A stretch of 54,911 nucleotides of DNA, taken from an uncultured Brachyspira sp. GTDB taxonomy: Bacteria > Spirochaetota > Brachyspiria > Brachyspirales > Brachyspiraceae. The translations under genes and the position numbers were made by a program. The notes under the pieces were generated by a model. It was not told the origin of the DNA. It ran no database searches and saw only the letters and a program-made list of their open reading frames with translations. The stretch lies in NCBI GenBank assembly GCA_949287565.1, contig CASEHG010000316.1, forward strand, positions 1 through 54,911, given 5' to 3'. Position 1 is the stretch's first letter. Each line of letters begins with the position of its first letter. Below, in pieces: positions 49,983 through 54,187 of this stretch.

Positions 49983-50594
49983 CTAATTATTTTTATGTAT
50001 AATATCCCAAATATTTTTTAATATATATTCTCCGATATCACTAATCATAAAAACAGAAATAATAATACCACTACTTATCGCAGTAGAAAATAAAAAATGT
50101 TTATAATAAATAAATATTAAATTAAAACACATTAATAACACAAAATATCTTATATATTTATATCTGAATTTTTTATCTTCCTTATAACCCCTACTTGGAC
50201 TATTAATGCTTGGCTTAGGACATTGTGGAATAATATATATACCTAATAATAAAGATATAATAAACATAGATATTACATAGTCTTGTGTTAGATAAGCTAT
50301 AAAAGTACCACAAAAAAATACTGTTAAAGAAGTTATAAAACAGTCTCTAAAACAACTGCAATGGTAGCCGCCCCCACCAATTCTTAACAATACAAAGCTT
50401 GATACAACTATAAAAAAAGGTATAAACATATTTAATAACCAAGCTATTAAAAATGCTATACCAAATGTAAAAAATTGCGAAAATATACCAAAGATTGCAT
50501 ATCTATATACTTCTCTGTCGTCTTCGGTTTCATTTTCACCAATTTTATTACCTATTTCATTAGACTTTTGTTCTATGTAATCGAATATATTCAT
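49983..50594 (-). CDS. agrB: AgrB-like peptide-processing membrane endopeptidase
   Basis: A 203-aa polytopic membrane protein. The catalytic pair is visible: GGGGYHCSCFRDC, with His78 and Cys85 spaced seven apart, as His77 and Cys84 of S. aureus AgrB. Several hydrophobic helices follow (about residues 95-115, 145-165, 170-190). AgrB cleaves AgrD, forms the thiolactone/lactone ring and helps export. Start ATG 50594 after AAGGTG was preferred over an earlier GTG. The gene lies 82 bases downstream of the AgrD-like gene, with a terminator between, and ends in TAG. Confidence 0.88.
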   Translation of the reverse strand: MNIFDYIEQKSNEIGNKIGENETEDDREVYRYAIFGIFSQFFTFGIAFLIAWLLNMFIPFFIVVSSFVLLRIGGGGYHCSCFRDCFITSLTVFFCGTFIAYLTQDYVISMFIISLLLGIYIIPQCPKPSINSPSRGYKEDKKFRYKYIRYFVLLMCFNLIFIYYKHFLFSTAISSGIIISVFMISDIGEYILKNIWDIIHKNN

Positions 50595-50610
50595 TAATTT
50601 CACCTTAATA

Positions 50611-50646
50611 AGTAAAAATGGGAGAGGTGTAAACTACACCTCTCCC
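50611..50646 (-). terminator. Terminator between agrD-like and agrB-like genes
   Basis: GGGAGAGGTGTA / TACACCTCTCCC is a perfect 12-bp stem with loop AAC, followed on the minus strand by ATTTTTACTT. It lies between the AgrD-like stop (50677) and the AgrB-like start (50594) and would make prepeptide message more abundant than peptidase message. Confidence 0.88.
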
Positions 50647-50676
50647 TTCTATTCGATAATGTCTATAATTAGCTAA

Positions 50677-50811
50677 TTAATCATTAGCTTTGTCTTCAAT
50701 TTCTTTCTTTAAAGACTTTGGCATTTCTGGAGTATAATAATCCCACCAAGTAAAAGATGCATTAACCTGATTTGAAGCGACTTTCTTAAGCATCGATTTG
50801 AGATTTTTCAT
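50677..50811 (-). CDS. agrD: AgrD-like autoinducer prepeptide
   Basis: A 44-aa peptide. The first 17 residues (MKNLKSMLKKVASNQVN) form an amphipathic basic leader. Residues 19-23 (SFTWW) match a five-residue ring with Ser as lactone residue in place of Cys, ending at a hydrophobic-D boundary. Residues 24-35 (DYYTPEMPKSLK) correspond to the conserved C-terminal recognition tail (D-x-x-x-P-E-x-P-x-x-L) used by AgrB. Strong ribosome site AAGGAGG. Its start overlaps the end of the upstream membrane gene by 26 bases. The predicted signal is an SFTWW-type lactone; leader length of the exported peptide is not predictable. Confidence 0.8.
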   Translation of the reverse strand: MKNLKSMLKKVASNQVNASFTWWDYYTPEMPKSLKKEIEDKAND

Positions 50812-51268
50812 TTTTTATCCTCCTTAAAATAAAAAGTAATATAATTTGAAATACAGTTTTACATATATTAATTCCAATTTCATAATTTAAATTAATATAG
50901 TTTACTGTATATATAGTATTAGAATATCCATCAAACAAATAAATAATTGCTGAGGTAGTAATCATATAAAATGCTTGTACTACAAATACTTGTAAATACT
51001 TTACTTCTCCTAAGTATTTATTATAATAAATTTTTGTAATATAAGGAGAAACAATAAATGGCACAAATATATTTAATAATAAACCTAATATATCAGATTT
51101 AAACAAATGTAAAAATATTTGAACTATAAGATTAATTGTACCTAAAATATAAATATGTTTAATATCTTTAGATATATTAAATTTTCTATTAGTAAATATG
51201 TCACAACCCATAATGACTACCAAAGCTTCAAGTGGATTTAATATCAAAAATGATATTGGTATATTCAT
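50786..51268 (-). CDS. Membrane protein resembling the AgrC sensor domain without kinase
   Basis: A 160-aa protein of about five to six hydrophobic helices (PLEALVVIMGCDIF, IYILGTINLIVQIFL, LLLNIFVPFIVSPYI, YLQVFVVQAFYMITTSAIIYLF, CKTVFQIILLFIL), ending in a charged tail KNEKSQIDA with no histidine-kinase domain. Its opening (NIPISFLILNPLEALVV) resembles the N-terminal membrane part of AgrC receptors. Start ATG 51268 behind AAAGGAATG was chosen. It may sense, sequester or export the signal peptide; those roles are inference. Confidence 0.65.
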   Translation of the reverse strand: MNIPISFLILNPLEALVVIMGCDIFTNRKFNISKDIKHIYILGTINLIVQIFLHLFKSDILGLLLNIFVPFIVSPYITKIYYNKYLGEVKYLQVFVVQAFYMITTSAIIYLFDGYSNTIYTVNYINLNYEIGINICKTVFQIILLFILRRIKNEKSQIDA

Positions 51269-51291: not shown

Positions 51292-51615
51292 TCACATTCT
51301 GTTTTTAATCCAAGATAAACAATTATACCAACAGGTATCTCCGTTAAACCTTCTTAATTCATGATATTTATTGTAACCTTGTTTGCCAGAATTTTCTTCT
51401 AAAACAACTAAATTAATCTCAGTGTCAGAAGCAAAGATAATATAAGAATGTAATCCATAAGTAATCCATAAAGCTTTTTCATCGTCTTTAAATAATTCTA
51501 TCTTAAAGTTTTCAAAGTTAAAAACAATCTCACATAAAGAACTAACATAATTACAACATGATTCGTAATTTAAGGAATTACGTTTTATCCATTTTAAACT
51601 TCTTGCAGAATCAAT
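51292..51615 (-). CDS. Hypothetical protein, probable AUU start
   Basis: A frame of about 107 codons with no ATG, GTG or TTG in its first part. It opens at ATT GAT (51615-51610) overlapping the upstream stop by five bases, where an ATGA coupling would be expected. It reads KWIKRNSLNYESCCNYVSSL, then FNFENFKIELFKDDEKALWI, and ends LSWIKNRM. It is a compact globular protein with several Cys and Trp, of unknown family. It is part of the agr cassette transcript. Coding status is supported by frame length and spacing. Confidence 0.5.
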   Translation of the reverse strand: MDSARSLKWIKRNSLNYESCCNYVSSLCEIVFNFENFKIELFKDDEKALWITYGLHSYIIFASDTEINLVVLEENSGKQGYNKYHELRRFNGDTCWYNCLSWIKNRM

Positions 51616-52319: not shown

Positions 52320-52360
52320 ATTATACACATAAAAAAATCTAAAATGTCTATAATGTGTAT
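52320..52360 (-). promoter_or_regulatory. Candidate promoter/operator upstream of the agr-like group
   Basis: On the minus strand TAGACA (52350-52345) and TATAAT (52325-52320) with a 19-base spacer form a weak promoter. The inverted repeat ATACACAT/ATGTGTAT (52323-52330 and 52353-52360) brackets it. The block ATGTCTATAATGT recurs at other intergenic sites. A regulator site is inferred. Confidence 0.4.
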
Positions 52361-54167: not shown

Positions 54168-54187
54168 ATGTCTATAATGTCTATAAT
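54168..54187. repeat. Recurring intergenic motif ATGTCTATAATGT
   Basis: ATGTCTATAATGTCTATAAT here, ATGTCTATAATGTGTAT at 52344-52360, ATGTGATAATGTGTAT at 54811-54826, and AATGTCTATAAT at 50658-50669 share a core. All lie between minus-strand genes. It may be a regulator or phage-promoter site. Confidence 0.45.

Follow-up and report, generated by a model that had tools for sequence, protein, structure and literature searches.

What does a phage gain from genes for an agr-type signal peptide and its processing peptidase when no kinase accompanies them, and who would listen to such a signal? The window, as we call the whole stretch of 54,911 nucleotides that was analyzed, is a phage contig in which reading of the ORFs places agrD and agrB in tandem on the minus strand, the same strand as the virion genes. 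The neighboring genes of the window encode phage proteins, including a terminase large subunit (TerL), a tape measure protein, and fibre-like proteins. Our best reading, to which we would give an even chance of being right, is an agr-type signal cassette in which a split-AgrC receptor is coupled to a host kinase.

Gene content and conservation of the cassette

The agrB gene (49983..50594, minus strand) encodes a putative membrane cysteine endopeptidase that matches PF04647 over residues 15 to 186 (E = 1e-29), its score of 103.7 bits lying well over the curated cut-off of 23. The preliminary description had named this protein AgrB-like, with a catalytic pair at His78 and Cys85, and both points held: the family match is strong, the two residues show the H-x6-C spacing expected of the catalytic pair, and both are invariant in the four phages described below, where the stretch PKPSxxSPSRG is also conserved. 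These residue numbers refer to the 206-aa protein that begins at GTG 50603; the ATG at 50594, which gives 203 aa, is the start that agrees with all of the relatives (MNIF/MNVF/MSIF). The AgrD-like prepeptide proposed in that description is likewise present, as a 44-aa ORF (50811..50677, minus strand) that aligns across the four phages and matches TIGR04223 above its cut-off (21.2 bits against 19), with a strong ribosome site, AAGGAGG, preceding the start. The identity of both AgrB and AgrD is, judged from sequence, secure.

The prepeptide and peptidase genes had therefore been correctly placed as a pair among virion genes of the same strand, but a third ORF had been missed. The interval from 49983 to 51268 had been taken to hold a two-gene cassette, which is not the case, since 51268 is the exact ATG of this third ORF (51268..50786, minus strand), kept in all four phages. 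It encodes a 160-aa membrane protein with 5 to 6 predicted helices and overlaps agrD by 26 bp. A 169-aa version with a GTG start at 51295 was considered and dropped, as the ATG at 51268 agrees with the MN..S start of the relatives.

The route to the other cassette relatives was MT835481.1, a 74.7-kb phage record from human feces, and the relatives in viral contigs were recovered with alignment-based scans; when viral contigs were queried with one protein alone, the AgrB of the window or of MT835481, no relatives were confirmed. In all, there are four distinct cassettes: those of the window, MT835481.1, and the IMG/VR contigs 3300035498_000552 and 3300035502_000208. The cassette proteins of IMG/VR 3300043004_000018 are identical with those of 3300035498_000552, and 3300043000_000006 has an identical AgrB. 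A looser AgrD pattern run on viral contigs returned only the already known cassette L008 and three chance matches broken by stops. No near DNA match of the window was found among phages, and defence-system models gave no match.

All four phages carry the cassette at one locus and in one order, membrane protein-agrD-terminator hairpin-agrB, with the first two genes overlapping and flanking small proteins of the same kinds. Identity to the window across the relatives is 33 to 40% for AgrB and 24 to 30% for the membrane protein, and the TerL proteins of the window and MT835481 are 58% identical. Because genes, order, overlap, and flanks are unchanged across four divergent phages, we infer that the cassette is under selection, and we read it as a phage-maintained cassette of agr type.

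Between agrD and agrB lies an intrinsic-terminator-like hairpin (50646..50620, minus strand), which had also been overlooked before and which consists of a 12-bp stem followed by a U-rich run. All three relatives have an equivalent hairpin and U tract of different sequence, and the fold z-scores in the four phages were -5.7, -3.4, -2.7, and -6.1. This arrangement suggests that sensor and AgrD are produced in excess of AgrB, the terminator holding AgrB low relative to both, or that expression of agrB depends on readthrough.

Directly upstream of the hairpin is a 16-bp motif, TTATAGACATTATCGA, that is common to all three relatives. The intergenic motif at this place in the window (TTATAGACATTATCGAAT; 50651..50668, minus strand) recurs elsewhere: TTATAGACATTATAGA is found at 50651-50668, 52336-52353, and 54169-54186, each copy being intergenic and on the late-gene strand, and in L008 (around 1078-1140) the motif takes the form of tandem 9-bp units, TAGACATTT. 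The repeated motif could serve the phage as a promoter or an operator. Sigma-70-like promoter matches were no commoner than in shuffles (32 versus 35). The late genes of SPβ use the phage's own RNA polymerase, YonO, for which no promoter sequence was known as of 2017 (PMC5467207), and it would be speculation to link the motif to a polymerase of the YonO type.

The membrane protein and the search for a kinase

The 160-aa protein belongs to no Pfam or NCBIfam family, and its predicted structure is poor (AlphaFold pLDDT of 54). In hhalign comparisons with membrane proteins that adjoin clostridial agrD genes, the profile built from the four phage proteins matched clostridial stand-alone sensors of 149 to 180 aa with E values of 9e-5 (8 members) and 4e-4 (10 members) and AgrC N termini with an E value of 7.5e-4. 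None of the controls (AgrB, unrelated membrane proteins, and proteins of the Davies type) did better than 0.05, nor did the reversed and shuffled profiles that served as nulls do better than 0.014. Over the ∼70 residues of the sensor match, identity is 13%, and the hhalign probability lies between 34 and 59%. One control sequence, L039, is itself a sensor relative and another, L103, probably is too; the phage profile matched neither of them singly.

Given the weak profile match and the poor structure prediction, the case for a receptor function is built mainly on where the gene lies and on the size and topology of its product, and clostridial stand-alone sensors of equal size do adjoin agrD. 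We regard the assignment of the 160-aa protein as an AgrC-type sensor as plausible and, on balance, probable. In 341 clostridial genomes the sensor profile found only weak partial matches, which argues against recent copying of the phage sensor from a common clostridial protein; the profile had no match in the scan of genome contigs.

The absence of a kinase, already claimed in the preliminary description, is supported for the records searched. A HATPase_c_5 search of the window contig, MT835481, and the two IMG/VR relatives (G101 and G102) found no AgrC-type kinase, a result that covers these records, the last two being fragments and the window possibly an incomplete phage. Only MT835481, at 74.7 kb, is long enough to argue against a kinase elsewhere in the genome. 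HATPase_c_5 matches in the rest of the bin from which the window comes are on other contigs than the window, and no AgrA (LytTR) response regulator was seen among the flanking ORFs read. The clostridial locus L080 (595-2957), one of two with Thr at the ring position discussed below, encodes AgrB, AgrD, a 162-aa sensor, and a 291-aa kinase in this order, an example of a sensor and a kinase encoded by different genes.

We propose that the membrane protein overlapping agrD would act as the receptor portion of a split AgrC and would bind the peptide. As a receptor without a kinase of its own, it would hand the signal to a separate host kinase, as in the clostridial split loci, or, alternatively, it would alter the activity of a host kinase. 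We infer in this way cyclization on Thr, a receptor function, export of the peptide, coupling to a host kinase, and any effect on lysis or lysogeny.

The same genes could instead serve to interfere with agr signaling, the peptide blocking the agr receptors of the host or of competing lysogens and the membrane protein acting as a decoy or sink that shields the producer or weakens its response. A cassette without a kinase and a hypervariable ring would both suit this role, and non-cognate AIPs commonly inhibit other AgrCs (PMC12312760, PMC10482373). However, no target agr system came to light, and the sequence favors neither blocking of host or rival agr nor signaling through a host kinase, the two being inseparable on this basis. 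We consider interference rather unlikely.

It is quite improbable, in our view, that the membrane protein is a processing, export, or self-protection partner of a ring peptide that is secreted and antimicrobial-like. To mature, AgrD has to be cut a second time, on the N-terminal side, and exported, steps that are incompletely known (PMC10482373), and the weakness of the sensor match leaves room for such a partner; but what the profile picks out are sensors of AgrC type rather than AgrB or unrelated membrane proteins, and the 160-aa protein falls into no recognizable protease family in Pfam.

AgrD and its predicted ring

Among the relatives, TIGR04223 scores the AgrD of MT835481 at 30.8 bits, while the AgrD of L008 is below the cut-off and that of L006 has no match; the latter two nevertheless align gap-free in the core. 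Aligned on the second Pro of PxxP and with the predicted ring in brackets, the window AgrD reads LKKVASNQVNASF[TWWDY]YTPEMPKSL and those of the relatives read LKKIAEKSVENAF[TNFAH]YQPKMPKSL, LKKIAENKVEEAF[TDWRF]FSPEKPKIL, and LKKIAIKHTEKAF[TIMNN]YQPKMPKIL. A basic leader, LKK[IV]A, and a PxxP tail, [YF]xP[EK]xPK[SI]L, are found in all four. Across the four AgrDs, residues -9 to -6 agree in 1 of 24 comparisons (4% identity), whereas the leader is 58% and the tail 65% identical, so that the four residues after the Thr are hypervariable between a conserved leader and a conserved tail, as expected of a diversifying signal.

None of the four phage AgrDs has Cys or Ser at the position of the ring nucleophile; each has Thr at -10, counted back from the second Pro of PxxP, and in the window this is Thr21. 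In the AgrDs of Listeria and S. aureus, the ring-starting residue is at -10. We therefore consider Thr21 likely to be the ring nucleophile. AgrB would cut AgrD after Tyr25 and use the side chain of Thr21 to close a predicted five-residue Thr lactone, T21-W-W-D-Y25, which would leave the cell with an N-terminal tail; in the prepeptide the predicted ring is followed by the tail YTPEMPKSL. The published AIP rings listed in PMC12312760 begin with Cys or Ser, and the open-access literature searched yielded no AIP closed by Thr. The expectation of a Cys or Ser nucleophile reflects the AIPs characterized so far and not the TIGR04223 profile.

A comparison set was obtained from 341 clostridial genomes, which yielded 81 unique AgrD sequences, the survey being centered on one clostridial locus that came from a genome-contig scan with AgrB. 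Position -10 is Cys in 41 of the 81, Ser in 19 (these two counts including two sequences outside the automatic motif that were placed by eye), and Thr in 2. In the remainder, where positions -11 and -12 were assigned by eye, Cys is at -11 in 14, Ser at -11 in 1, and Cys at -12 in 3, and one sequence has none of these. Thr at -10 therefore occurs in Clostridia but is rare there, and it is fixed in our sample of four phages.

Two other products have to be weighed against a Thr lactone. AgrB might cut AgrD without forming a ring and release a linear peptide, as may hold for the Brevibacillus and Paenibacillus phage peptides, those of Davies, Emery, and Harrison having no Cys, Ser, or Thr at -10; the silence of the searched literature on Thr AIPs would fit this too, but the invariant Thr borders the hypervariable stretch exactly at the expected ring site, and we hold a linear product to be highly doubtful. 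The ring of the preliminary description, SFTWW (residues 19-23) closed by Ser, or a seven-residue SFTWWDY (19-25), appears very improbable, for although Ser is a known AIP nucleophile (PMC12312760) and the three clostridial AgrDs with Cys at -12 carry it at the position of Ser19, this residue is Ala in all three related phages, Thr21 is invariant at the canonical position, and SFTWW would shift the cleavage site two residues off the usual spacing to PxxP.

Phage lineage and comparison with known systems

The bin to which the window belongs, as contig C316, is 2.93 Mb in size and includes FlaA genes of spirochaete flagella. Neither the sensor nor the terminase was found in the 99 relatives searched. 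The named relatives of TerL belong to SPβ-like and other Bacillota phages, with ∼35% identity to SPβ phages. Composition is not decisive on the host, as the GC content of the window (29.2%) is within the range of the sampled bin loci (24 to 30%). A mis-binned Bacillota phage is probably a better explanation than a spirochaete phage, a cross-phylum phage being the alternative, and with a spirochaete bin and a Bacillota phage lineage in disagreement, no host kinase can be named.

We also made two observations on the surrounding material. Contig C283 of the same bin, itself phage-like, has a second AgrB-like gene (L005 7243-8488) that keeps H-x6-C and is preceded by a gene for a 184-aa membrane protein, with no recognizable AgrD and no match of the sensor profile to that protein. 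In MT835481.1 (21101-24197), TerL is split into three tblastn pieces over 3.1 kb, and a 289-aa ORF inside the split gene is mobile-intron-like.

Carried to its full extent, the split-AgrC reading would have a lineage of SPβ-like gut phages communicate by means of a Thr-lactone AIP and a free-standing receptor coupled to a host kinase, timing lysis or lysogeny; we put this forward tentatively and would not expect the whole of it to hold. If true, the Thr lactone would be a third agr ring chemistry after the Cys thiolactone and the Ser lactone, widening the chemistry used in AgrD gene finding, and a kinase-less viral receptor would show a phage listening through host signaling parts and borrowing only the missing half of the host signaling chain. 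In all four phages this compact cassette occupies one locus, and its hypervariable ring has the look of a signal; two sharp predictions follow from it, namely, closure of the ring on Thr and a receptor that functions with no kinase of its own. Phage agr genes have been known since 2014, and their role is still untested in the literature that we found.

Arbitrium is the best-known form of phage peptide communication. Its genes, aimR and aimP, provide peptide communication in related SPβ-like phages (PMC8270828), but the components are unrelated, arbitrium using a linear imported hexapeptide and a cytoplasmic receptor (AimR/AimP) and the cassette an AgrB-processed peptide and a membrane sensor.

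An apparently complete agr set, with all genes annotated as hypothetical, is present in the Ruminococcus phage NatCom_29429 (PV036441.1, L023; 3706-6721). It comprises an AgrC-type kinase (HATPase_c_5, E = 9.7e-23), a LytTR-like response regulator, a divergent AgrB, and an AgrD with Ser at -10.

As a set of agr genes borne by a phage, the cassette is of a kind already known. That phage agr genes had been reported from Clostridioides difficile, as the preliminary description stated, is correct, phiCDHM1 carrying agrD, agrB, and agrC (Hargreaves 2014, PMC3901668); the priority is wider, however, since the same work already mentioned kinase-less phage sets, with AgrB, AgrD, and membrane proteins without HATPase_c in Davies, Emery, and Abouo. 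The phiCDHM1 agr3 locus resembles that of the window in its phage-borne AgrB and AgrD, PxxP tail, and lack of a response regulator, whereas its AgrC has a HATPase_c kinase domain where the window has a 160-aa membrane protein, and the phage lineage differs. The Brevibacillus phages Davies, Emery, and Abouo and the Paenibacillus phage Harrison share with the window an AgrB, a small peptide, and one or two kinase-less membrane proteins, but their gene order is membrane protein-agrB-agrD, their membrane proteins of ∼220 aa have no hhalign match to the window protein (E = 0.46), and the Davies, Emery, and Harrison peptides do not have the Thr at -10 seen in the window; the Davies and Abouo cassettes adjoin the integrase, while that of the window is in the late region. 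Clostridial split loci such as L080 have an AgrB, a stand-alone sensor of equal size, and Thr at -10, as in the window, but L080 retains the kinase that the window cassette does not have, and the sequence similarity is remote. What sets the cassette apart from known phage agr genes is therefore the gene order, the predicted Thr nucleophile, the size and family of the membrane protein, the terminator, and the phage lineage.
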